A stretch of 64,000 bases of DNA from NCBI RefSeq assembly GCF_000020965.1, contig NC_011297.1, positions 758,387 to 822,386 on the forward strand, given 5' to 3'. Shown here piece after piece: positions 7,061 to 24,457 of the stretch. Below the pieces are notes generated by a model, which saw only the letters and a program-made list of their open reading frames with translations, did not search any database and was not told where the DNA came from. A program made the position numbers and the translations under genes. The stretch comes from Dictyoglomus thermophilum H-6-12. GTDB lineage: Bacteria; Dictyoglomota; Dictyoglomia; Dictyoglomales; Dictyoglomaceae. The number at the start of each line of letters is the position of its first letter. Position 1 is the stretch's first letter.

Positions 7061-7669
7061 ATGAGTAAGTGTGTGGTATGCAATAAGAGAAAAGGGAAGA
7101 GAAAGTGTCCTGCTCTTTCGGGACTTATATGCGCTGAATGTTGTGGGACAAAGAGAATGAAAGAAATAAATTGTCCTTTAGACTGTGTTTATCTTAAAGA
7201 AGCTCAATTGTACTCTATTCTAAGAGTTGAAGAAAAACCTGCTGATTTTCAGCCTAAACAATGGGATTTATTTTGGTATTTTGAGAGTTTAATATACAAA
7301 TTCCTTTTAGAATTTACTACTTTTACTGATGAGGAGCTTCTGGATGTGATATCTCTAATGGAGAAGGAATATCAAACTAGGAAAAAGAATCTTTATTTGC
7401 CCTCTCTTCATCCCAAATCAACTCGAGCGATTAAACTAAAATCTATCTTAGAGGAAGAATTTTCTAAGCTTGAGAAACAAATAAATGATTTTGGTTTGCC
7501 TGTGTTTACTCTTGATGATTTTATTAAAGTATTATCTTTTGAGAAAGACAGAATAGAAAACTACATGAAAGAGAATAGAAATGTGGGAGGCAATCTGTTT
7601 TTACAGGTTTTAAAAGGTGAAGTAGAAGTCTTTATAAATCAGAAGAGAAGAGAGAGGGTACATGAGTAG
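7061..7669 (+). CDS. Cysteine-rich putative zinc-binding protein
   Basis: 202 residues from the ATG at 7061 (MSKCVVCNKRKGKRKCPAL). An in-frame ATG at 7004 would add 19 residues across the promoter and is rejected. The first 40 residues hold a cysteine array (C4, C7, C16, C23, C26, C27, C36, C40) of the type CxxC-x8-C-x6-CxxCC-x8-C-x3-C, typical of a conserved but uncharacterised bacterial zinc-binding domain. The remaining 160 residues are mostly helical and charged, without a recognised domain. The ahcY start overlaps its last 8 bases, so the two genes are translationally coupled. Confidence 0.7.
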   Translation: MSKCVVCNKRKGKRKCPALSGLICAECCGTKRMKEINCPLDCVYLKEAQLYSILRVEEKPADFQPKQWDLFWYFESLIYKFLLEFTTFTDEELLDVISLMEKEYQTRKKNLYLPSLHPKSTRAIKLKSILEEEFSKLEKQINDFGLPVFTLDDFIKVLSFEKDRIENYMKENRNVGGNLFLQVLKGEVEVFINQKRRERVHE

Positions 7670-8903
7670 AATTAAAGATATCAATTTGTGGAAATCTGGT
7701 GAAAGGAAAGTTGAATGGGTAAAAAACTTCATGCCTGTAGTTAACACTCTTGAAAATAAATATTCTTCCTCTCAAATCTTTAAAGGTAAAACTATTGGTA
7801 TGTGTATCCATTTAGAGGCAAAAACAGCGAGGCTTGCTCTTGCTTTTAAGAATTGTGGGGCAAAAGTGGTATGTACAGGAAGTAATCCGTTATCTACCCA
7901 AGATGATGTGGCTGCTTATCTTGTTAGAGAAGGTGTTGAGGTTTTTGCCTGGAGGGGAGAAACTTTAAAAGAATACGAAGAAAACTTAGAGGAAGTTTTG
8001 AAAAGAGAACCAGATTTGATAATAGATGATGGCTTTGATTTAACGGTAATGCTTTATAAGAAGTTTCCTCATTTAAAAAATAAGCTTATTGGAGTTGGAG
8101 AAGAGACCACTACTGGAGTTAATAGAGCAAAGGCCTTGCTAAAGGATAGAGGTCTAGATTTTCCTGTTGTCGCTGTTAATGATTCGAGATTGAAGTTTCT
8201 TTTTGACAATCGATATGGTACAGGAGAGTCCTCCATAGCATCTTTTATGCGGAATACTAATCTGCTTGTTTCTGGTAAGAATTTTGTTGTGGCAGGATAC
8301 GGATGGGTAGGAAGAGGTATTGCTCATAAACTTCAAGGTTTAAAAGCAAAGGTCATAATAACAGAAGTAGATCCTATCAAGGCTTTGGAGGCTCATATGG
8401 ATGGTTTTGATGTAATGCCTATGAACGAAGCTGCAAAGATTGGGGATGTATTTATTACCGCTACTGGTAACTTTAAAGTTATAAATGAGCAACATTTTTA
8501 TAACTTAAAGGATGGTGCTATTCTTGCTAATGCTGGGCATTTTAACGTGGAAATAGATATGGAAGCTCTTGAAAAAATTGCTGTTGAGAAGAGAGAGATT
8601 AGAGATAACATACAAGAGTATAAACTCCCAAATGGTAGGAGGATCTTTGTAATTGCTGATGGGAGGCTTTTAAATCTTGCTAGCGGAGATGGACATCCCG
8701 TAGAGATAATGGATCTTTCTTTTGGTCTTCAGTTTCTTGTTATGAAATGGCTTTTGGAAAAAGGAAAAGAACTTCCTAAAAGTGTACTCTCTGTTCCTGA
8801 AGATATGGAAAAGGAATTAGCAATGATAAAATTGAATAGCCTAAATATTAACATTGATTCTCTAACTGAAGAACAGTTAAAATATCTCAAGAGCTGGGAG
8901 TAG
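7662..8903 (+). CDS. ahcY: Adenosylhomocysteinase
   Basis: 413 residues. The enzyme reversibly splits S-adenosylhomocysteine into adenosine and homocysteine with tightly bound NAD, relieving inhibition of methyltransferases. The substrate region begins near residue 45 ([19 protein letters not shown]). DDGFDLT lies near 125, [13 protein letters not shown] near 147, and the NAD-binding [13 protein letters not shown] near 208. The C-terminal region ([15 protein letters not shown]) is intact. At just over 400 residues it is the short form without the 40-residue insert of eukaryotic enzymes. It works with the SAM synthetase and the MTA/SAH deaminase further along the window. Confidence 0.96.
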
Positions 8904-8946
8904 TTATTCAGAGAATAAAAATTTTGAAAAGGGGGTAAAAGAATCA

Positions 8947-9498
8947 ATGATTGGTTTAATTGTTTTAGGTGTAATTATTTTCCTTGTGGCTTTTGTCATA
9001 ATTATCTACAATCGCTTGGTGGTATTAAGAAATAGAGTAGAAAATGCATGGGCGCAGATAGATGTTCAATTGAAAAGAAGGTTTGATTTAATTCCAAATC
9101 TTGTAGAGACAGTTAAGGCTTATGCTTCTCACGAAAAAGAAGTTTTTGATAAGATAGCTATGTATAGAGCTCAGATGGCGGGGGCAAAGACTCCAGGAGA
9201 AGCTGCTCAGGCTAACGAAGGATTAAGTTCTGTTTTGAAGACTCTTTTTGCAATTGCAGAAAATTATCCTGAGCTTAAGGCAAATCAAAACTTTATGATG
9301 CTGCAAGAGGAACTCTCAGGAATAGAGTCAAAAATTGCTTATGCTAGACAATTTTATAACGATACAGTGATGATTTATAATCAATCTTTGCAAGTTTTTC
9401 CTAATTCTATTATTGCTAATATTTTTGGTTTTAAACCTAAGGAATACTTTGAGGTAGAGAACCCTGAAGAGAGAAGAGCTGTAAAAGTGAGCTTCTAA
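8947..9498 (+). CDS. lemA: LemA family membrane protein
   Basis: 183 residues. One N-terminal membrane helix (residues 2-22) is followed by the family core: [25 protein letters not shown] and then [17 protein letters not shown]. The rest is a cytoplasmic or periplasmic helical bundle. Its molecular role is not established, but LemA genes commonly sit beside HtpX-type membrane proteases, as here with a gap of only 6 bases. The start ATG follows GGGGGTAAAAGAATC. Confidence 0.92.
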
Positions 9499-12098: not shown

Positions 12099-12458
12099 AT
12101 GACCTTAGAGAGGGTTAAAGAAGTCTTAAAAGCTCAAGTACTATGCGGGGAGGAACATTTAAACAAAGAGATATCTCTTGTTGGAGCTACTGATCTTATG
12201 AGTGATGCTCTATGTCTATTAGAGGAAGGAGCTTTACTTCTAACAGGTCTTGTAACGGTACAAGTTATAAGGACGGCGGAAATGCTTGATCTTGTAGGAG
12301 TGGTTTTTGTAAGAGGAAAAATTCCTCCTAAGGATGTGATTGAACTTGCTCGCAATTCTAACTTACCTTTGCTTTCGACTAAGTACCCTATGTATGAAGC
12401 TTGTGGATTGTTATACATAGCTGGTTTTAGAGGAAAGAAGGTAGATGTTGATTCTTGA
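12099..12458 (+). CDS. DRTGG domain protein
   Basis: 119 residues covering one DRTGG domain. Typical segments are an N-terminal LKAQVLCGEEHLNKEI, ALLLTGLVTVQVIRTAEML in the middle, and VRGKIPPKDVIELARNSNLPLLST near the end. DRTGG domains of this size are common in gene clusters with iron hydrogenases and CBS proteins in clostridia and Thermotogales; their ligand is unknown. This is the first gene of a ten-gene operon, and its stop overlaps the TTG start of the next gene by 4 bases. Two related proteins occur later in the operon. Confidence 0.8.
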   Translation: MTLERVKEVLKAQVLCGEEHLNKEISLVGATDLMSDALCLLEEGALLLTGLVTVQVIRTAEMLDLVGVVFVRGKIPPKDVIELARNSNLPLLSTKYPMYEACGLLYIAGFRGKKVDVDS

Positions 12459-13327
12459 AGATCCCAAAAGAATATCTTGAAAATATAAAAGTTAAGGATA
12501 TTATGAATACTGATATTGTAAGGTTAAGACCTTACCAGGATATGCGTTCTCTTCAAGAGATAATGCGAATTAAAAGAATTGATGCTATACCCATTGTGGA
12601 TGATTTAGAAAGACTTATTGGTCTCGTAACTGTGGAAAATGTTATCCAAGCTTTAGTAAAAGGTGATCTGAATGTTCCTTGTGAGAGATATATGGTGAGA
12701 GAGCCTAAATGCTTGAAACCTGATGACAATCTTTATGAGGCATTGCTAAAATTTAGACAGTTTAGATTTGGTAGATTTCCAGTAGTTGATGAAGAAGGTA
12801 AAGTTCTTGGAATATTAAGCACTAAAGATATAGTTCTGAATCTTGTAGATATTGAAGATATAGAGGGAATAAAAGAGGAAAAAAAAGAAGAGGCAGTGCT
12901 TGTTCTGGAGTATCCAGTAATGGGAGGAGATTTTGCCTTAGCAGGGATGGCATCAAGTAATGTGAAAAAGACCTTGCAGCAATTGGGTATAAGCCCTGAT
13001 ATTATAAGGAGAGTTGCAGTAGTGACTTATGAGGCTGAAATGAATATTGTAATTCATGCTTATAGAGGAGTTTTGAGAGTAAAGGTAACTCCAGAATATA
13101 TTGATATTGTAGCAGAAGACGAAGGACCAGGAATACCCGATATAGAACTTGCAATGCAGCCAGGTTATTCTACTGCTCCTGATAACATAAGAGAAATGGG
13201 ATTTGGAGCAGGAATGGGGCTTCCCAATATAAAAAATTCTTCCGATGAACTTAAGATCGATTCCATAGTAGGTAGAGGTACGACAGTCCACTCAAGAATT
13301 TATTTGAAGAGGGAAAAGAATGTCTGA
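12455..13327 (+). CDS. CBS-pair protein with a GHKL ATPase domain
   Basis: 290 residues. Two CBS motifs (about 16-70 and 78-135) form a nucleotide-sensing Bateman module. A serine kinase/anti-sigma-like GHKL ATPase domain follows (about 160-288). Its N box is VVTYEAEMNIVIHAYRG near 190, the G1 box is EDEGPGIPD near 223, and the G2 box is MGFGAGMGLPNI near 249. There is no phosphoacceptor histidine domain, so RsbW/SpoIIAB-like serine kinase or nucleotide-gated partner switching is more likely than a two-component role. The TTG start overlaps the upstream stop. The gene sits next to the putative H-cluster sensor, which suggests that it relays the sensor's redox state. Confidence 0.85.
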   Translation: MKIPKEYLENIKVKDIMNTDIVRLRPYQDMRSLQEIMRIKRIDAIPIVDDLERLIGLVTVENVIQALVKGDLNVPCERYMVREPKCLKPDDNLYEALLKFRQFRFGRFPVVDEEGKVLGILSTKDIVLNLVDIEDIEGIKEEKKEEAVLVLEYPVMGGDFALAGMASSNVKKTLQQLGISPDIIRRVAVVTYEAEMNIVIHAYRGVLRVKVTPEYIDIVAEDEGPGIPDIELAMQPGYSTAPDNIREMGFGAGMGLPNIKNSSDELKIDSIVGRGTTVHSRIYLKREKNV

Positions 13328-14651
13328 AAGATATATTCATTCTGTTGCTATAAATCTTCAAAGATGTAGAGGCTGTATTCACTGCATAAGACATTGTCCT
13401 ACCGAGGCGATGAGAGTAAGAAATGGTAAATCTTTAATAATTCCCTATCGTTGTATTGATTGTGGAGAATGTATTAGGGTCTGCCCCTATCATGCTCCCT
13501 TTGGTTTTACGCATACATTGGATAGTATTGCTTATCTCGAAAATGTAGTAGTTATTATTTCTCCTGAGTTTTATTCTCAATTTCCTACTAAGTATTCTAT
13601 TGGGGATATCCAAGAGGCGGTTAGAAAAGCTACTTCTGCAAAAGAGGTATGGGATACTACTTATGCTATCTATTTACTTGAGAGTGCTCTTTTAGATTAT
13701 GTAAATTCTTCTCCTAACTTACCCTTGATTTCTACTTATTGTCCTGCAATAATTGAGCTAATTCAAGTGAGATTTCCTACGCTTATTCCTAACTTAGCTC
13801 CTTTTAAATCTCCAGTGGAGATTATGAGCCAGATTATAAGAGAGCACTGGCAGAAAGATCATCCTGGTGAAGGCCTGAACTTAGTATATATTACTCCTTG
13901 TCCTGCTCTTGCAAGTTATTTAAAGGAGATAAAAGAAGATACAGTTGAATTTATAATAGGTATAGATAATATCTACTTAAAAGTCAAAAAAGAACTTCAA
14001 GAAGCAAATTTAGGTGTACAAAAATTGTTTTATCCTAAAGGCATTCTTACAGGAACATTAGGTGGTGAAGCTCAAATATTTAATGAAGAAGAAGCAATAA
14101 GTGTTGGAGGTATAGACAAAATATTAAGAGTACTTGAAGACTTAGAGAGAAACAAAATTCAGGATGTAAAATTTTTAGAGCTTAGGGCTTGTGAAGAGGG
14201 ATGTGTAGGAGGTGTTTTAAATCCTGAAAGTTATTATTTGGCAAAGAAAAGGATATATTCTATTTACAAGGCTTTAAATAAAGGAAAAATTGAGAATAGT
14301 GATTTATTAAAAGATCTTTCCGAAATGCATATCTCCAGAATAGTTAGAACATCTCCTATCTCGCCGAGACCTGTTTGGAAATTAGACGAAGATATAAGTA
14401 AGGCTCTTAAAAAGATGGATGAAATGAAAAGAATTCTTGAAATTCTTCCTGGTCTTGATTGTGGATCTTGTGGATCGCCGACATGTGCCTCTTTAGCTGA
14501 GGATATTGTAAGAGGTAATGCTCAAATATACGATTGTATCTTCCTTTTAAAAGAAAAATTATGGGAAATGGCTAAAGAAATGGAGGAGCTATCTAGAAGA
14601 TCCTCTTCGGTTATTTTAAAGCGGAGGTCAGAAGATAATGAGGGTCAGTGA
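13320..14651 (+). CDS. Putative sensory [FeFe] hydrogenase-like protein
   Basis: 443 residues. Two [4Fe-4S] ferredoxin motifs open the protein (C16, C19, C22, C26 and C45, C48, C51, C55). A [FeFe]-hydrogenase large-subunit domain follows. Its H-cluster cysteines appear kept: STYCPAI near 141, TPCPAL near 193, and RACEEGC near 290 and 294. The cysteine before the first ligand in catalytic enzymes (TSCCP), used for proton transfer, is a tyrosine here. The final stretch has a cysteine cluster (CGSCGSPTC near 380). This pattern fits the group C/D or HydS type, thought to sense hydrogen or redox state rather than make hydrogen. It overlaps the genes on both sides. Confidence 0.82.
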   Translation: MSERYIHSVAINLQRCRGCIHCIRHCPTEAMRVRNGKSLIIPYRCIDCGECIRVCPYHAPFGFTHTLDSIAYLENVVVIISPEFYSQFPTKYSIGDIQEAVRKATSAKEVWDTTYAIYLLESALLDYVNSSPNLPLISTYCPAIIELIQVRFPTLIPNLAPFKSPVEIMSQIIREHWQKDHPGEGLNLVYITPCPALASYLKEIKEDTVEFIIGIDNIYLKVKKELQEANLGVQKLFYPKGILTGTLGGEAQIFNEEEAISVGGIDKILRVLEDLERNKIQDVKFLELRACEEGCVGGVLNPESYYLAKKRIYSIYKALNKGKIENSDLLKDLSEMHISRIVRTSPISPRPVWKLDEDISKALKKMDEMKRILEILPGLDCGSCGSPTCASLAEDIVRGNAQIYDCIFLLKEKLWEMAKEMEELSRRSSSVILKRRSEDNEGQ

Positions 14652-14985
14652 GTTGATAAATAAGTTAGAGCTTAAATTGATTGTTCCTTATGATGAAGAT
14701 TGTGAGATAGAGAGTGGTATAGTATGTGATTTGCTTTCTTTTGTAATGGCTAATGCTCCAGAGAATTCTGTATGGGTGACTATACAGACCCATGTAAATA
14801 CTATAGCTGTTGCGACTCTTGCGGGTATAAAGATGATAATATTTGTTGCTGGTCAAAAGCCTGATGAGGAAACTATTAAAAAGGCAAGAGAAGAAAAGAT
14901 TATTATTACATGTACTGAGGATACAGCATTCAATATTGTGGGTAAGTTATATGAATTAGGAATAAAAGGGGTAAAGAGGATATAA
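14638..14985 (+). CDS. Small DRTGG-like protein
   Basis: 115 residues starting MRVSELINKLELKLIVPYDED. The gene overlaps the end of the hydrogenase-like gene by 14 bases. The fold resembles DRTGG domains but is more divergent: a central SVWVTIQTHVNTIAVATLAGIKMII aligns by eye with the LLLTGLVTVQVIRTAEML part of the neighbours. Related short proteins are annotated in anaerobes as hydrogenase-associated or serine kinase regulatory. No catalytic residues are recognised. It ends exactly where the next DRTGG gene begins. Confidence 0.65.
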   Translation: MRVSELINKLELKLIVPYDEDCEIESGIVCDLLSFVMANAPENSVWVTIQTHVNTIAVATLAGIKMIIFVAGQKPDEETIKKAREEKIIITCTEDTAFNIVGKLYELGIKGVKRI

Positions 14986-15377
14986 TGAAAGGCATAGAAC
15001 TGGTAAAATTAATTGATGGAAAAGTTTTAACAGGTAAAGAAAAACTTGATGAGATCGAAATCGAAAAAGCTTTTGCTGCAGATCTTATGAGTGATGTTCT
15101 TGCAATGGTCACATCGGATAAGAGAGATGTGGTGCTTATTACTGGAATTACAAATCCACAAATTATAAGGACTGCAGAGATATTAGATATTCCTATGATA
15201 ATAATATGTAGGGGAAAAGTTGTACCTAAGGAAGTTATAGAACTTGCTGAGGAGAAAGGAATAATTTTGGTAAGTACCGAAAAGATAGTTTTTGAGGTAA
15301 GTGGAATTCTGTACTCTCATGGTATTAAAGCTGCAGTTATGAAGGGAAAAGCGAGAGAGGAGAGTAAGGATAGTTGA
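14985..15377 (+). CDS. DRTGG domain protein
   Basis: 130 residues with a complete DRTGG domain. ELVKLIDGKVLTGKEKLDE is at the N terminus, DVVLITGITNPQIIRTAEIL in the middle, and CRGKVVPKEVIELAEEKGI near the end. It is clearly a paralogue of the operon's first gene. The ATG overlaps the previous stop by one base, and the stop overlaps the TTG of the PHP gene. Two such proteins in one operon suggest a hetero-oligomer or two related sensors, which is inference. Confidence 0.8.
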   Translation: MKGIELVKLIDGKVLTGKEKLDEIEIEKAFAADLMSDVLAMVTSDKRDVVLITGITNPQIIRTAEILDIPMIIICRGKVVPKEVIELAEEKGIILVSTEKIVFEVSGILYSHGIKAAVMKGKAREESKDS

Positions 15378-16123
15378 AATGGGTTGGAGTAGATCTTCAT
15401 ATTCATACTATACTTTCTCCTTGTGGAGATTGGGATATGAGTCCTAAGAAGATAGTTGAGAGAGCTAAAGAAGTGGGACTAAGTGTTATGGGAATTACAG
15501 ACCACCATATGGTAGAAAATTTTCCTGCAGTTTCTTACTGGGGAAAGAGGTTGGGAATTTTGGTTATTCCTGGAATGGAAATTCAGACTAAAGAAGAGGT
15601 TCATGTATTAGCATTATTCAAAGATTATGAACTTGCTTACAATTTTCAAAAAAAAATTTGGAATTATCTGCCTGAAGAAACTAATAATGAAGATCTTTTT
15701 GGAGTACAGGTAGTAGTTAATGAAAAAGATGAAGTAGAAAGAATTGAGAATAGATTATTACTAACCTCTATACAACTCTCTTTAGAAGAGGTTGTAAATT
15801 TGATTAAAAAATTTGGGGGAATTGTGATCTTAGCTCATATTGATAAAAATAGTTTTAGTGTACTTTCTAATCTTGGTTTTATACCTGAGGGATTAGATTA
15901 TGATTTACTTGAGCTATCAAAGAATGCGAGGGTTGATAAGTTTCTTGAGAGTAATCCTTACTTAGTGGCAAAGAAGGATAGTTTCATAATTTCCTCTGAC
16001 GCGCATTATATAGGAGATATTGAAAAGCCGAGAACCTTTATAGGCTTAGATAAACTTACAGTTGAAAGTGTTTTTACGAGTCTTAAAAACAAAATTATAA
16101 AAATAGAAAAAGTGGAGGTATAG
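15374..16123 (+). CDS. PHP-domain phosphoesterase
   Basis: 249 residues. Metal-binding PHP motifs are present: DLHIHTILSPCGD at residues 7-19, GITDHH near 40, an HVLAL segment near 77, ILAHID near 155, and SSDAH near 209. It therefore probably keeps the multi-metal site for phosphoester hydrolysis. It lacks polymerase or histidinol-phosphatase additions. The substrate is unknown. Placed among sensor and kinase-like genes, it could act on a phosphoprotein or a small phosphorylated signal, which is inference. The start is a TTG overlapping the DRTGG stop, with AAGGA just upstream. Confidence 0.82.
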   Translation: MKWVGVDLHIHTILSPCGDWDMSPKKIVERAKEVGLSVMGITDHHMVENFPAVSYWGKRLGILVIPGMEIQTKEEVHVLALFKDYELAYNFQKKIWNYLPEETNNEDLFGVQVVVNEKDEVERIENRLLLTSIQLSLEEVVNLIKKFGGIVILAHIDKNSFSVLSNLGFIPEGLDYDLLELSKNARVDKFLESNPYLVAKKDSFIISSDAHYIGDIEKPRTFIGLDKLTVESVFTSLKNKIIKIEKVEV

Positions 16124-16125
16124 CT

Positions 16126-16614
16126 ATGGCTGTAGAATTAAAGTTCTCAGAGTATGCCCAGAAAGAAGTAGAGAGAATCTTAGACAGATTTTCTTCTACC
16201 AAAGGATCTCTAATTATGATTTTACATGCTATTCAGGAGAAATTTGGTTATCTTCCTAAAGAGGCTTTAGAAATGGTATCTGAAAAGTTAAAGATACCAT
16301 TAAGTGAAATTTATGGAGTAGTTACTTTTTATTCTTTCTTCCGATTGGAGCCTCAAGGAAAGCATGTAATCAGACTTTGTATGGGTACTGCCTGTTATGT
16401 TAAGGGGGCAGCAGATTTGTTGACGGCTTTAGAGCAAATGGGTTTGAAGGAAGGAAAAGTAACTGAGGATGGTTATTTCTCTTTGGATCTTGTGAGATGT
16501 ATTGGTGCTTGTAGTATGGCTCCTGCTCTTATGATTGATGAGGAAGTATATGGAAAATTAACTCCTGATAAGCTGAAGAAATTGATAGAAAATTTTAGGA
16601 AAGAGCATCAATGA
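16126..16614 (+). CDS. hndA: NuoE/HndA-type [2Fe-2S] subunit
   Basis: 162 residues with a thioredoxin-like fold and the four cysteines of the NuoE/HndA cluster: CMGTACYVKG near residues 84-89 and RCIGACSMAP near 124-128. The helical N terminus (SSTKGSLIMILHAIQEKFGYLP) is typical. It should pass electrons between the flavin subunit HndC and partner ferredoxin domains in an NAD(P)-linked hydrogenase or dehydrogenase. The GTGGAGG ribosome binding site is strong. The next gene overlaps its stop. Confidence 0.92.
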   Translation: MAVELKFSEYAQKEVERILDRFSSTKGSLIMILHAIQEKFGYLPKEALEMVSEKLKIPLSEIYGVVTFYSFFRLEPQGKHVIRLCMGTACYVKGAADLLTALEQMGLKEGKVTEDGYFSLDLVRCIGACSMAPALMIDEEVYGKLTPDKLKKLIENFRKEHQ

Positions 16615-17147
16615 AAGAATTATCCCTTCATTTGCTTGATTTAGTGCAAAACTCTGTAGAGGCTGGAGCAAAGGATATATATATTGAGATGAAAAAGGAT
16701 CTAATAAATAAGAAGTTGATGTTAAGGATAAAAGATAATGGGAAAGGAATTCCTCCTGAAATGTTGGAGGAATTAAAAAATCCATTTTTTACTACTAGAA
16801 AAACTAGAAAAGTAGGTTTGGGAATTCCCCTGTTCTGGGAATTAATAAGAAATTGTGACGGTAGTCTTGAAATTAAATCAGAAGTAGGGAAAGGAACTGA
16901 GATTATTGCTGAAGTTCCTTACCATTGTATTGATCTTCCACCATTAGGTGATCTTCCGGGTACTATCTTATCCATAATAGCTACAAATCCTGATTTGAAT
17001 TTTAGTTTTAGGTTTGAAAAAAATGGAGATGTTTTTGATTTCTCAACTATAGAGTTGAAGAAGGAGTTAGGTGAAGTTCCTATAAATAGTTTAGAGGTTA
17101 TCTCTTTTCTAAAAAAATATCTTTATGAGCATTTAGGAGGTTGGTAA
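16611..17147 (+). CDS. Stand-alone GHKL ATPase domain protein
   Basis: 178 residues with a single histidine-kinase-type ATPase domain. The N box is LHLLDLVQNSVEAGAKDI near residue 6, the G1 box KDNGKGIPPE near 44, the F box NPFFTTRKTR near 60, and the G2 box VGLGIPLFWEL near 71. There is no dimerisation/phosphoacceptor domain or sensor, and about 70 unassigned residues follow. Such proteins occur between the hndA- and hndB-like genes in several anaerobes. It may be a serine kinase or conformational regulator of the complex. The short LGIP in place of LGLG is family-like. Confidence 0.8.
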   Translation: MKELSLHLLDLVQNSVEAGAKDIYIEMKKDLINKKLMLRIKDNGKGIPPEMLEELKNPFFTTRKTRKVGLGIPLFWELIRNCDGSLEIKSEVGKGTEIIAEVPYHCIDLPPLGDLPGTILSIIATNPDLNFSFRFEKNGDVFDFSTIELKKELGEVPINSLEVISFLKKYLYEHLGGW

Positions 17148-17149
17148 AT

Positions 17150-17521
17150 ATGACTAAGAAGCTTACCATTGAGGATCTCAAGAAAATTAAAGAAAAAGCT
17201 CAGGCTGAGCTTGAGACAAGGAGTGCTGAGGGGAAGGACAAAATAGTAGTACACATGGGTACATGTGGAATTGCGGCTGGAGCAAGAGAGACATTACTTG
17301 CAATTCTTGATGAGATAGAAAAAAGAAATTTGAAAAATGTTATAGTAACTCAAGCAGGATGTATTGGGCTTTGTGAGTATGAACCTTTAATATCTGTGGA
17401 AAAAGTAGGAGGTCCTAAGGTTTTGTATAAGCATGTTACTCCAGAGAAAGCAAGAAAAATTATTGCTCAACATATTGTTAATGGACAAGTTGTTGCTGAA
17501 GATGTTCTTTCTACAGAATAA
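17150..17521 (+). CDS. hndB: HndB-type thioredoxin-like [2Fe-2S] protein
   Basis: 123 residues from the ATG at 17150, chosen because AGGAGG lies nine bases upstream; an upstream TTG would overlap the previous gene. Cysteines sit in HMGTCGIAAG near residue 36 and in QAGCIGLCEYEPL near 73-77, the pattern of the thioredoxin-like [2Fe-2S] ferredoxins typified by HndB of Desulfovibrio. It should be an electron-transfer subunit between HndA and HndC. Confidence 0.9.
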   Translation: MTKKLTIEDLKKIKEKAQAELETRSAEGKDKIVVHMGTCGIAAGARETLLAILDEIEKRNLKNVIVTQAGCIGLCEYEPLISVEKVGGPKVLYKHVTPEKARKIIAQHIVNGQVVAEDVLSTE

Positions 17522-17555
17522 ATATAGAAACATTATAGGATAAGGAGGTTTAGAA

Positions 17556-19346
17556 ATGCCAGAAAGAGCACACATCTTAATATGCGCAGGAGCAGCATGT
17601 ATTTCAGCAGGAGAAGAAAGTTTCAAATCCGCCCTTGAGAGAGAGCTTAAAGAGGCAGGAATTTATGACGAGGTAAAGGTAATTGAGACAGGTTGTTTTG
17701 GAACCTGTGACTTAGGCCCTGTTATGGCTATTTATCCTGAAGGTACTTTTTATATTCGCTTGAAACCACAGGATGCTAAAGACATTGTGCACGAACATCT
17801 CCTTAAAGGTAGAGTAGTAGAAAGACTTCTTGTTAAGGAACCAGAACTAAAGAAATCAATTCCTACTATTGATGAATTACCATTCTTTAAGAATCAGGTA
17901 AGAATAGCACTAAGGAATGTGGGTTTTATCGATCCGTTAAATATTGAAGAGTACATTGCAAGAGATGGTTACTCCGCGCTTGCAAAAGTTCTTACGGAGA
18001 TGACACCTGAGGAAGTAATAGAAGAGGTAAAAAAATCTGGTCTTAGAGGTAGAGGTGGAGCAGGTTTTCCAACAGGTTTAAAGTGGGAGCTTGGAAAAAA
18101 AGCAAAAGGGGAAGAAAAGTATATTGTTTGTAATGCAGATGAAGGAGATCCTGGAGCCTTCATGGACAGAAGTATTATGGAGGGGGATCCTCATTCGGTA
18201 ATTGAGGGAATGCTAATTGGAGGATATGCTATTGGAGCTAAAAAGGGTTTTGTTTATATAAGAGCAGAGTATCCTCTTGCCATTAAAAGACTTACAGCAG
18301 CATTGGAACAAGCAAGAGAATATGGACTTTTAGGTGAAAATATTCTTGGAACTAATTTTTCTTTTGATATTGAGATAAGAATAGGAGCAGGAGCATTTGT
18401 ATGTGGTGAAGAGACCGCACTAATTGCCTCTATTGAAGGTAAAAGAGGAATGCCAAGGCCAAGACCTCCTTTTCCCGTTAACTCAGGGCTTTGGGGTAAG
18501 CCTACAGTGATAAACAATGTGGAGACTTGGGCAAATATCCCTCCAATAATTTTGAATGGCTCAGAGTGGTTTAGTAAATTTGGAACCGAAAAGAGTAAGG
18601 GTACAAAAGTCTTTGCCCTTGCTGGGAAAATCAACATGACTGGTCTTATCGAAGTTCCTATGGGTATCACTTTAAGAGAGGTTGTATATGATATTGGAGG
18701 AGGAATTCCTGGGGGCAAGAAATTTAAAGCAGTACAAATAGGAGGTCCAGCAGGAGGCTGTATTCCAGCGGAATATCTTGATACTCCCATTGACTATGAA
18801 TCTATTACTGCTCTTGGGGCTATAATGGGTTCGGGTGGTCTTATTGTAATGGACGAGGACAATTGTATGGTAGATGTGGCTAAGTTCTTCTTGTCCTTCA
18901 CCCAGGATGAGTCTTGTGGAAAGTGTGTACCTTGTAGGGTAGGTACAAAAAGGATGTTGGAGATTCTTGACAAGATTACTAAAGGTGAAGGGACAGAAGA
19001 GGATCTTGTAGAATTAGAACAGCTTGCATATACTGTTAGAAATACATCTTTGTGTGGTCTTGGTAAAGGAGCACCAAATCCTGTGCTTACTACTCTCAAA
19101 TACTTCAGAGATGAATATTTAGCTCATATTAGGGATAAAAAATGTCCTGCTAAAGTATGCACTGCGTTAATACATTACGAAGTAATAAGAGAAGAGTGTA
19201 GAAAGTGTTCTATTTGTTTTAGAAATTGTCCTGTTGGAGCAATCTATAAAGATGAAGATGGGACTTACGTAATAGATCAATCTAAATGTACAAAGTGTGG
19301 AATCTGTTTCCAGGTATGTCCTTTCAAAGTTATTAAGAAAGAATAA
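17556..19346 (+). CDS. hndC: NuoF/HndC-type NAD(P)H-binding flavoprotein subunit
   Basis: 596 residues, the usual length of HndC/HydB. An N-terminal thioredoxin-like [2Fe-2S] domain (about 1-85, CAGAAC and ETGCFGTCDLG) is followed by the FMN and NAD(P)H site (GRGGAGFPTG near 165, CNADEGDPGAF near 191). An SLBB region follows, then a [4Fe-4S] site (ESCGKCVPCRVGT near 453 and a cysteine near 500). Two C-terminal ferredoxin motifs close the protein (CRKCSICFRNCP near 549, CTKCGICFQVCP near 578). It oxidises or reduces NAD(P)(H) and feeds electrons to iron-sulfur partners. It is the last gene before a terminator, and no HndD/HydA catalytic subunit follows. Confidence 0.95.
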   Translation: MPERAHILICAGAACISAGEESFKSALERELKEAGIYDEVKVIETGCFGTCDLGPVMAIYPEGTFYIRLKPQDAKDIVHEHLLKGRVVERLLVKEPELKKSIPTIDELPFFKNQVRIALRNVGFIDPLNIEEYIARDGYSALAKVLTEMTPEEVIEEVKKSGLRGRGGAGFPTGLKWELGKKAKGEEKYIVCNADEGDPGAFMDRSIMEGDPHSVIEGMLIGGYAIGAKKGFVYIRAEYPLAIKRLTAALEQAREYGLLGENILGTNFSFDIEIRIGAGAFVCGEETALIASIEGKRGMPRPRPPFPVNSGLWGKPTVINNVETWANIPPIILNGSEWFSKFGTEKSKGTKVFALAGKINMTGLIEVPMGITLREVVYDIGGGIPGGKKFKAVQIGGPAGGCIPAEYLDTPIDYESITALGAIMGSGGLIVMDEDNCMVDVAKFFLSFTQDESCGKCVPCRVGTKRMLEILDKITKGEGTEEDLVELEQLAYTVRNTSLCGLGKGAPNPVLTTLKYFRDEYLAHIRDKKCPAKVCTALIHYEVIREECRKCSICFRNCPVGAIYKDEDGTYVIDQSKCTKCGICFQVCPFKVIKKE

Positions 19347-19348
19347 AT

Positions 19349-19379
19349 AGGGGGATGGCATTCCCCCCCCCTACTTTTT
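19349..19379 (+). terminator. Terminator of the hydrogenase-like operon
   Basis: GGGGGA, a short loop and TCCCCC followed by CTACTTTTTA lie just after the hndC stop. The C run is nine bases long, so the exact pairing can slide. Confidence 0.7.
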
Positions 19380-19507
19380 ATTCAAATTTTTACTTCTTTA
19401 AATTTCTAAATTTTTTAGGGATATGATCTTTTAAAAGGGGGTTAAAGATTTTCTTACATAAGGAAAAAGATTAGCTTTAGAAATTTTCTGCTAAGGGGGG
19501 ACATCTT

Positions 19508-21603: not shown

Positions 21604-21632
21604 TTGTAATCTTTATTAGCTTGTGGTATTAT
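21604..21632 (+). promoter_or_regulatory. Promoter of the SAM synthetase-lysS operon
   Basis: TTGTAA (21604-21609), a 17-base spacer and TATTAT (21627-21632), about 40 bases before the ATG. No SAM riboswitch can be recognised in so short a leader. Confidence 0.5.
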
Positions 21633-21674
21633 TTTTTTGCTTGTTTTATTAAAAAAAGAAGGAGGATAGGAGAG

Positions 21675-22889
21675 ATGAGAAACATTGTAGTAGAAAAACT
21701 AAATTCTTTGCCAGTAGAAGAACATGGTGTGGAGCTTGTGGAAAGAAAGGGTATAGGACATCCTGATTCTATCTGCGATGCTATTATGGATCAAATTTCT
21801 GTAAATTTATCGCAAGAATATATAAGGCGTGTAGGAAATATTCTACACCATAACATTGATAAAAGTTTACTTGTAGCAGGAGAGGTTGAGAGAAAGCTTG
21901 GTGTAGGTGGCGAAGTTAAAAAACCTATGCTTCTTGTTATAGGGGACAGAGCAACTTTTGAAGTAGACGGTATAAGAATTCCTGTCGAAGAAATAGCTAT
22001 TGAGACAGCTAAGGAATGGTTTAGAAAGAATTTAAGGTTTGTTGATCCTGAAAAACATGTAAAATTCCAAGTTGAGCTCTATCCTGGCTCTCCAGAACTT
22101 ACAGATATTTTTAGAAGAAGAAAGGGCTTGCTTCCTGCTAATGATACCTCGGCTGCAGTTGGATATGCTCCTTTGACATCTACTGAAAAAATAGTATTAG
22201 AACTTGAGAGATATTTAAATTCTAAAGAATTTAAAGCTATTCATCCAGAGGTAGGAGAAGACATAAAAATAATGGCATTTAGACAGAAGAAAAATTTGCA
22301 GCTAACTATAGCAATGCCTCTAATTGATAGGTATGTAACCAGTGTGAAGGATTATTTTGAGAAAAAAGAAGTTGTAAAAGGTATTGTTGAAGATTTTGTA
22401 AGAGAAAGGGCTCAGAATTTTGAGAGCATTACTATTGATATAAATACTTTAGATGATCCAGAGAGAGGTATGGATGGTATTTATGTAAGCGTGCTTGGGA
22501 CTTCAGCAGAGGATGCAGATTCAGGGCAGGTAGGAAGAGGTAATAGAGTAAATGGGGTTATTGCTTTAAATAGACCTATGGGAACAGAGGCTGCTGCTGG
22601 GAAAAATCCTGTAAGCCATGTAGGAAAAATTTACAATATTCTTACTCATAAGATTGCCAATGAAATTTATCAAAATGTACCAGGTATTAAAGAGGTTTAT
22701 GTATGGCTTTGTAGCCAAATTGGAAAACCTATTGATCAGCCTAAGATCGCTACAGCTCAGCTTATTTTAGAAAATGGAGTTTCTATCTATGATGTAGCAA
22801 AGCCAGTAGAAGATATAATTGATCAGGAATTGGCTAACATTGAGAAGTTCTGTAACGAGCTTGCTGAGGGGAAGTATTCCGTATGGTAG
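21675..22889 (+). CDS. Archaeal-type S-adenosylmethionine synthetase
   Basis: 404 residues from the ATG at 21675, preceded by GGAGGATAGGAGAG. Longer upstream frames cross the promoter. This is the archaeal MAT family (methionine adenosyltransferase 2), not the bacterial MetK family. Diagnostic segments are [20 protein letters not shown] near residue 20, [29 protein letters not shown] near 156, and [16 protein letters not shown] near 310. It makes SAM from methionine and ATP. The lysS start overlaps its stop by 7 bases. No bacterial metK is visible in the window, so this is probably the working SAM synthetase. Confidence 0.95.
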
Positions 22890-24457
22890 AGAAGGTGCCT
22901 CATTGGGCTGATTTAGCTGCTGAGGAGATACTACGTCTTAAAGGTAATAAAAATGTAGTAGCAACAGGAATTACTCCCTCAGGTCCCATACATCTTGGGA
23001 ACCTGAGGGAGATCCTTACTGGTGATGCTCTTTATAGAGCTCTTAAAGAAAAGGGTTCAGAGGTAGAATTTATTTATATAGCCGATACTTTTGATCCATT
23101 AAGAAAGGTATATCCATTTCTTCCTGAATCTTATGCAGAACATGTAGGAAAGCCTATATGCGAAATACCTGATCCTGAAGGTTGTCATGAAAACTATGCT
23201 GAACATTTTTTAGAGCCTTTCTTGGATGCTATTAAAGTACTGGGAATAGAACCAAAGGTAATAAAAGCTCACGAAAGCTATAAGAATGGACTGTACACAG
23301 AGATAATTGACTTGACTTTGGAAAATAATGAAAAAATAACGGAGATTCTTAATGAAATCGCAGGGAGAAATCTTGAAAAGAATTTTGTTCCTCTTCTTCC
23401 CAAATGTGAAAAATGTGGTAGGTTGAATACTACAAGCATAATTTCTTTTGATACCAGTAAACATCAGGTAGAGTATCAGTGTAAGTGTGGCCATACTGGG
23501 ATTGCCGATTACAGCAAGGGAGAAGCAAAGCTTCCCTGGAGACTTGATTGGCCTGGAAGATGGAAGATTTTTGGGGTTACAGTAGAGCCTTTTGGAAAGG
23601 ATCATGCTACTACTGGTGGGTCTTATGATACAGGTAAAGTAATTACTAAGGAGATATTTGGCTATGAGCCTCCTTATCCATTTGTATATGAATGGATATA
23701 TCTAAAAGGAAAGGGAGCAATGTCAAGTTCAAAGGGTATTGCGATTTCTATAAATGAGATATTAGAAATTCTTCCTCCCTCTTGGGTTAGGTATTTGATA
23801 TTAAGATACAAACCAGACAAACACATAGATTTTGATCCAGTAAATGGCTATATTTTATTAGCAGAAGATTATGAAAGATTAGAAAGAATTTACTATCGTT
23901 TAGAGGGTACGGAAGAAGAATGGGCTGAGCTTGCAAGAGTCTATGAGTTATCACAGGTTAAGGAAGTACCTAAGGAACCTGGTCCTCAGGTACCCTTAAG
24001 ACATCTAATCACATTGGCTCAAATTTCGCTAGGAAACAGCGAACTTCTAAAAGAAATGCTTGTGAGGAGTGGTTATGAGAAGGAACTCAGTAAATTTGAT
24101 GAAATATTGAAGAGGGTAGAATATGTTAATAACTGGCTCCAAAAATTCGCACCGTCTCAAGTAAAATTTAAGCTTCAAGAAGAAGTTCCGGAGATTGTAA
24201 AAAGTTTTTCTCCTAAAGAAAAGGAGTTTTTGAAAAAATTGTCGGAAAAAATAAAAGAAAGAGATTGGCAAGGAGACGAACTTCAAAATTTTATTTATAC
24301 TTTAGCTCAAGAATATGAAATAGAAGGAAAGAGAGCTTTTCAGTTAATATATTTGGCCTTCTTAAATCAAACATCAGGACCAAGGGCAGGTTATTTCTTA
24401 GTTTCCTTGCCCAAGGATTTTGTAGTAAAAAGGTTAGAAGAAGCAGGAACCTTATAA
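22883..24457 (+). CDS. lysS: Class I lysyl-tRNA synthetase
   Basis: 524 residues. The Rossmann signature is GITPSGPIHLGNLRE near residue 28 (the HIGH motif) and the KMSKS-like loop is GAMSSSKG near 278, so this is the class I enzyme typical of archaea and a minority of bacteria. A zinc-binding CEKC...CKCG cluster lies near 175-200. It charges tRNA-Lys. It overlaps the SAM synthetase gene and forms an operon with it. Its last codons lie inside an inverted repeat shared with the convergent pyrE gene. Confidence 0.96.
   Translation: MVEKVPHWADLAAEEILRLKGNKNVVATGITPSGPIHLGNLREILTGDALYRALKEKGSEVEFIYIADTFDPLRKVYPFLPESYAEHVGKPICEIPDPEGCHENYAEHFLEPFLDAIKVLGIEPKVIKAHESYKNGLYTEIIDLTLENNEKITEILNEIAGRNLEKNFVPLLPKCEKCGRLNTTSIISFDTSKHQVEYQCKCGHTGIADYSKGEAKLPWRLDWPGRWKIFGVTVEPFGKDHATTGGSYDTGKVITKEIFGYEPPYPFVYEWIYLKGKGAMSSSKGIAISINEILEILPPSWVRYLILRYKPDKHIDFDPVNGYILLAEDYERLERIYYRLEGTEEEWAELARVYELSQVKEVPKEPGPQVPLRHLITLAQISLGNSELLKEMLVRSGYEKELSKFDEILKRVEYVNNWLQKFAPSQVKFKLQEEVPEIVKSFSPKEKEFLKKLSEKIKERDWQGDELQNFIYTLAQEYEIEGKRAFQLIYLAFLNQTSGPRAGYFLVSLPKDFVVKRLEEAGTL

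Follow-up and report, generated by a model that had tools for sequence, protein, structure and literature searches.

That group C and group D [FeFe]-hydrogenases act in signalling has been inferred from the genes that surround them, and to our knowledge no transduction path has been described for either group. In Thermoanaerobacter, genes for the group D protein HydS and a histidine-kinase-like ATPase lie as a pair upstream of those for bifurcating hydrogenases (PMC8163306). The operon of the bifurcating [NiFe] hydrogenase of Acetomicrobium mobile, NiFe-HydABCSL (NiFe-Bfu), also encodes HydD and HisK, which are reported to lie outside the holoenzyme (PMC8880783, PMC9304861) and for which roles in maturation or regulation were assumed (PMC8880783); HydD has been described as a subunit in A. 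woodii (PMC6288185). Here we analyse a ten-gene operon of Dictyoglomus thermophilum H-6-12, located at positions 12099–19346 of a 64,000-nucleotide stretch of contig NC_011297.1 (forward-strand positions 758,387 to 822,386; "the window" below). We propose, with confidence and doubt in about equal measure, that this operon is a cassette of regulator and diaphorase genes, and that the electron-bifurcating hydrogenase it serves has its catalytic half encoded at another site in the genome, with a [NiFe] enzyme as the partner and a sensing module built on a HydS that probably has no working H-cluster. The gene set and its neighbourhood are of a known kind; new are the gene fusions linking the parts of the module, the specific divergence of the HydS pocket in genomes without maturases, and the prediction of a bifurcating [NiFe] hydrogenase whose genes are split between loci. 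The genome paper on D. turgidum lists NADH oxidoreductase genes as producers of the proton gradient and does not treat the operon.

The source genome is complete (1,959,987 bases). All ten open reading frames of the operon lie on the plus strand, and neighbours overlap by 1–14 bases or are separated by gaps of at most 34 bases, in the order DRTGG1, CBS-GHKL ATPase, HydS, DRTGG2, DRTGG3, PHP, HndA, GHKL ATPase 2, HndB and HndC. A sequence-only reading of the window had described just such an operon, carrying HndABC and no HndD, and had listed its products as HydS, two GHKL ATPases, three DRTGG-like proteins, a PHP protein and HndABC. Both the architecture and this inventory agree with the frames and with Pfam, except that the DRTGG match of the product starting at 14638 is under the cut-off. 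We were not able to find HndD/HydA or another hydrogenase catalytic subunit within or after the operon among the window reading frames and their Pfam matches. The order HndA–ATPase–HndB–HndC is shared with HydABCD of A. woodii and HndABCD of Desulfovibrio, but those systems, unlike the window operon, include HydA/HndD. The second GHKL ATPase stands where hydE sits in the A. woodii cluster.

A scan of 84,980 species genomes for relatives returned at least 588 encoded ones. The best 80 were fetched, their loci were annotated with hidden Markov models (HMMs) grown from the window genes, and 85 related loci were compared; these are the loci closest to the query and not a random sample (L and G numbers below label loci and genomes). 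Where HndC lies near HydS, a HydA-type gene comes next in 40 same-strand cases and 17 divergent ones; in one of all these (L037) it is the [NiFe]-type subunit. HndC near HydS without a following HydA was found in eight loci (five from Dictyoglomota, together with L072, L088 and L091), and in two further cases the contig ends. All five complete Dictyoglomota copies lack a catalytic subunit gene, and all ten frames are open in each. In one of the other loci, from a Lutispora metagenome-assembled genome (MAG; L088:11850–19100), the HydS operon ends at HndC and an Rnf operon follows directly, with no hydrogenase between them.

The third gene of the operon (13320–14651) has Pfam Fe_hyd_lg_C, FeS and Fer4 matches, and its AlphaFold model (predicted local distance difference test score, pLDDT, 92.4) matches [FeFe] hydrogenases with an E-value of 1.6e-19. 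Its sequence places it with the sensory [FeFe]-hydrogenases of group D (M2e) type, as a HydS homologue whose H-cluster pocket is altered. It has two N-terminal [4Fe-4S] motifs (C16, C19, C22, C26 and C45, C48, C51, C55), the four H-cluster cysteines C141, C194, C291 and C295, and a C-terminal Cx2Cx4Cx16C motif (C381, C384, C389, C406). The sequence-only reading depended on close relatives not having lost the sensor cysteines, and indeed all 16 are invariant in 64 aligned sequences and kept in Dictyoglomota. The three cysteine-bearing regions, the lack of a PAS domain among the Pfam matches and the flanking histidine-kinase-like ATPase are all shared with TamHydS, the group D (M2e) protein of Thermoanaerobacter mathranii (PMC8163306, PMC13104023). 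The window differs from that system in that K358 is lost, C299 is replaced by Tyr and M497 by Arg, the genome has no HydEFG, and no group A trimer lies downstream.

The altered pocket residues of the window HydS are Y140, T192, L197 and R289. At the K358 position (CpI numbering), 77 of 80 relatives have Lys and the other three Arg, whereas the five Dictyoglomota proteins have L, L, Q, E and E; Lys at this position is not a formal criterion for group D. The replacements by Tyr at the C299 position and Arg at the M497 position are found in all five Dictyoglomota HydS. The M353 position is T in the window and in G003 and A in G004–G006, compared with S or T in 80/80 other group D proteins. Overall, the Dictyoglomota proteins share 36.6% identity with the other group D proteins compared, whereas the latter are 47.8% identical among themselves (minimum 37.7%), and in the HydS tree the Dictyoglomota stem measures 2.23 changes per column against a median tip of 0.33. 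The adjacent ATPase 1 is 51.3% identical to its relatives, against a norm of 49.3%. Since HydS diverged while ATPase 1 did not, constraints appear to have changed in the sensor alone and not in its partner; among the operon proteins compared, HydS alone is sharply diverged by these measures.

HydE, HydF and HydG were found over curated cut-offs in none of seven Dictyoglomota genomes in whole-genome searches for which Thermotoga maritima served as a positive control. A HydG-like match at 1,488,911 was rejected as a maturase, as it is ThiH inside the thi (thiamine) operon. Twelve of 14 genomes that carry other HydS genes have a HydF over the cut-off, the exceptions being those of L037 and L064. 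The latter genome (G019) is a Fermentithermobacillaceae MAG that has an ATPase–HydS fusion, an intact HydA and no HydF over the cut-off. In the literature searched we found no paper joining Dictyoglomus with HydEFG. The sequence-only reading had assumed that HydS senses H2 through a normally loaded H-cluster. With HydE, HydF and HydG absent from the phylum sample and HydS pocket residues lost that relatives keep, H2 sensing by Dictyoglomota HydS through a standard H-cluster seems unlikely.

A candidate for the missing catalytic half is present in all seven Dictyoglomota genomes, each of which encodes a [NiFe] large subunit. The [NiFe] hydrogenase of the source genome (G000) is located at 1,746 kb, ~970 kb from the operon, in a cluster of hypA, an Mrp-like ATPase, a HydA/NuoG-like subunit without an H-cluster domain, small and large subunits, an endopeptidase, hypF, hypD and hypE; no NuoE or NuoF (the C and B subunits) is found in this cluster. 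The last operon gene, HndC/HydB (17556–19346), encodes a NuoF protein with an N-terminal [2Fe-2S] domain and a C-terminal 2x[4Fe-4S] domain (Pfam Complex1_51K, NADH_4Fe-4S and Fer4). Its best solved relative is 7t2r_B, subunit B of A. mobile NiFe-HydABCSL (956 bits over residues 4–595; next 882). The distant HydA-like subunit likewise best matches 7t2r_A (232 bits; next 164) and the large subunit 7t2r_D (604 bits; next 435), so that all three proteins find their best solved match in one and the same complex (PMC8880783, PMC9304861). Dictyoglomus differs from A. mobile in that the subunit genes lie at two loci and not in one operon, and in that the B and C genes travel with a group D HydS module.

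Three further NuoF-family proteins are encoded in the genome: the HydB beside a HydA, a NuoF without the ferredoxin-like C-terminal domain, and RnfC. With these eliminated, the window HndABC is the best B/C candidate for the [NiFe] enzyme. The second of them belongs to a NuoEF pair at 1,519 kb, which was rejected as a bifurcating [NiFe] partner because its NuoF lacks both the four N-terminal [2Fe-2S] cysteines and the C-terminal ferredoxin domain; such an orphan NuoF cannot supply the bifurcating clusters, and a simple diaphorase role is possible for it. This orphan NuoE–NuoF pair is at L012:6631–8726; a similar NuoF is present in the other good genomes, and in G004 a pair lies near the HydABC cluster. 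Independent support for the [NiFe] pairing comes from L037, where the same operon terminates in [NiFe] HydA-like, S and L genes, the genome has no HydF, and HydS carries Tyr, Arg and Arg at three pocket positions.

The remaining operon products would form the sensing module. The order DRTGG–ATPase–HydS–DRTGG–PHP recurs among the 85 loci, and in many of them the sensory genes are followed by HndA–ATPase–HndB–HndC and HydA, or have these genes divergent alongside. Because dozens of unrelated genomes share this order, the operon arrangement is not due to chance. The module opens with DRTGG-domain protein 1 (12099–12458; Pfam DRTGG, 31.1 bits, over the cut-off), a possible nucleotide-binding input, and a CBS-CBS-GHKL ATPase that is SpoIIAB/RsbW-like (12455–13327; Pfam CBS, 89.7 bits, and HATPase_c_2; NCBIfam SpoIIAB 60.7 bits, under the cut-off). 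Downstream of HydS lie DRTGG-like protein 2 (14638–14985; Pfam DRTGG 17.6 bits against a cut-off of 25.2, assigned by the DRT family HMM), which is an extra copy found in Dictyoglomota, DRTGG-domain protein 3 (14985–15377; 30.8 bits) and the PHP-domain phosphoesterase (15374–16123; Pfam PHP). The N-box residues E193 and N197 and the D222xG224xG226 motif of ATPase 1 are identical in 79/79 relatives, and the PHP metal ligands H9, H11, D43, H44, E69, H155, D209 and H211 in 67/67.

Among the diaphorase genes, HndA/HydC (16126–16614; NuoE-like, [2Fe-2S]; Pfam 2Fe-2S_thioredx, 172 bits) keeps its four Cys ligands in 64/64 sequences. The second GHKL ATPase (16611–17147; Pfam HATPase_c, 62.4 bits), which is without a phosphoacceptor domain and resembles the hisK of A. 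mobile, has a predicted structure (pLDDT 90.4) that matches MutL and histidine-kinase ATPase domains, and its residues D10, N14, D42, G44, G46, G69 and G71 are identical in 61/61 relatives. The HndB/HydD-like gene (17141–17521; Pfam HndB-like; NCBIfam 2Fe-2S ferredoxin 40.8 bits, under the cut-off) keeps its position in most relatives. In 24 loci the sensory genes occur without HndC nearby, in some of them merely because the contig ends.

Several of the sensory genes are found fused. The DRTGG 1 counterpart is joined to the ATPase domain of the next gene in L026, L038 and L070, the ATPase to HydS in L064 and L092, and a DRTGG domain to the C-terminus of HydS in L037, while in Dictyoglomota the ATPase is fused to CBS domains. 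These fusions support a single physical sensing module. Together with the essentially invariant catalytic and ligand residues and the occurrence of the sensory genes without hndABC, they lend support to the joint sensing device that the sequence-only reading had envisaged. They also give a concrete wiring, DRTGG/CBS–GHKL ATPase–HydS–DRTGG.

We propose that HndA and HndC, as the C and B subunits of the bifurcating core, would together with HndB complete the [NiFe] enzyme, and that this split enzyme would couple NADH and reduced ferredoxin to H2. HydS of Dictyoglomota would keep its FeS clusters, probably without a working [2Fe] H-cluster, and may read the redox state of the ferredoxin/FeS pool and not H2. 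Its redox state could gate the SpoIIAB-like ATPase, which might also respond to adenine nucleotides by way of the CBS and DRTGG domains, and the PHP protein, as a metal-dependent enzyme, would take off a phosphate or nucleotide mark. This model predicts a bifurcating [NiFe] hydrogenase built from two distant operons.

A number of observations weigh against this model. Group A HydA and group C HydS are present in six of the seven Dictyoglomota genomes (not in G006), and their pocket motifs are kept in those examined. Such conservation is hard to square with the absent maturases: where the pockets of HydA and group C HydS are kept without them, missing HydEFG may not mean a missing H-cluster. 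The L064 genome has no HydF, yet it keeps K358 and an intact HydA, and the Tyr and Arg pocket residues are seen as well in L029 and L042, from genomes that do encode HydF. HndA is not closest to the [NiFe] system, scoring 154.6 bits against the [NiFe] HydC, 170.6 against NfnC and 156.5 against the HydC of T. kivui. Finally, no STAS protein or sigma factor was found among the operon genes with Pfam (for STAS the search was confined to the operon). Genes of HydA-like type unaccompanied by maturases have been described in Rhodospirillum rubrum and some protists (PMC4967309). A strict rule by which pocket Tyr and Arg mark a [NiFe] partner was rejected, as L029 has both residues plus an intact group A HydA and HydF.

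These conserved pockets, and the four H-cluster and 12 other cluster cysteines kept in HydS itself, would fit an ordinary H2 sensor whose H-cluster comes from an unrecognised maturation pathway and which signals H2 in the way suggested for the rest of group D. We consider this unlikely, since the lysine at the K358 position is lost, marked divergence is confined to HydS, and the operon persists in G006, which has no other [FeFe] proteins. The G006 genome is 99% complete and has neither HydA nor group C HydS, yet the operon is kept there. The ABC-transporter gene that flanks the HydABC block elsewhere is also missing from G006, and for the loss of this block a deletion and an assembly gap cannot be separated. 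For the phylum as a whole we suggest, more tentatively than for the cassette itself, that Dictyoglomota run [FeFe]-family proteins without HydEFG, that an H-cluster-free HydS controls the split [NiFe] enzyme through a CBS/DRTGG-gated ATPase, and that the conserved HydA and group C HydS acquire their H-cluster in some unrecognised way or likewise work without one. The retention of HydS without HydEFG in this phylum would then be a natural experiment on the need of such sensors for an H-cluster, and the HydA that these genomes also conserve raises the question of HydEFG-independent H-cluster assembly in bacteria.

The genome search for HydA/HndD called for by the sequence-only reading did reveal a group A HydA, at 407 kb, which keeps all H-cluster pocket motifs. 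HndABC might serve this protein, so that one catalytic subunit would have two diaphorases, an arrangement that would recall the HydA following HndC in most relatives. However, this HydA has its own HydB and HydC adjoining, the HydB being T. maritima-like (1087 bits); the G006 operon persists without HydA, and no HydEFG is encoded. This pairing thus appears less probable still than an ordinary H2 sensor, and the [NiFe] enzyme is more likely than the group A HydA to be the distant catalytic subunit. The earlier proposal that HndABC serves a catalytic subunit encoded at a distance is accordingly likely to stand, with the identity of that subunit changed from the HydA first suggested. The region of the group A enzyme (genome 401–409 kb; L004:12595–14595 and 7384–9087) contains a complete HydABC, a group C HydS, a SpoIIE-type phosphatase and Rex.

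HydS might instead itself be the catalytic subunit of HndABC, a slow group D hydrogenase in place of HndD; it is the sole [FeFe]-type protein in the operon and in G006, and a related group D enzyme shows low-rate H2 turnover (PMC8163306). This we regard as improbable, because relatives carry HydS plus a separate HydA, the window HydS is without the N-terminal [2Fe-2S] domain that HydA-type bifurcating subunits use, its pocket residues are lost and maturases are missing. That the operon is a drifting remnant of a clostridial HndABCD operon, as the missing HndD and the fast evolution of HydS might suggest, is very improbable given ten open frames in five complete copies, intact catalytic residues and normally conserved kinase and HndC.

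The resemblance of the first ATPase to the SpoIIAB/RsbW anti-sigma kinases extends to the GHKL fold with catalytic Glu and Asn, and the source genome encodes a SpoIIE-type phosphatase; the window differs in that the operon encodes neither a STAS nor a sigma partner and in that the ATPase is fused to CBS (elsewhere to DRTGG or HydS). SpoIIE-type phosphatases are the usual opponents of SpoIIAB-like kinases. The one in the source genome adjoins the group C HydS. In Lacrimispora (L060 and L075, 1–11400), the group D HydS operon has within 10 kb of it a SpoIIE-type phosphatase and additional proteins of the hydrogenase family; this phosphatase and the operon kinase could possibly form a pair. With such a phosphatase beside the group C HydS and near the Lacrimispora operon, a partner switch common to the two HydS systems is possible.

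The sequence-only reading had ended the operon at a terminator. A GC-rich hairpin followed by T-rich DNA does lie just past the last stop (19349–19380, plus strand), which makes a terminator at this point plausible; the terminator scanner scored this hairpin on the minus strand only. The genes downstream of the operon encode a cupin and then a xylulokinase. Further along the window, at 21621–24457, a PF01941-type S-adenosylmethionine synthetase, the archaeal type, adjoins a class I lysyl-tRNA synthetase.

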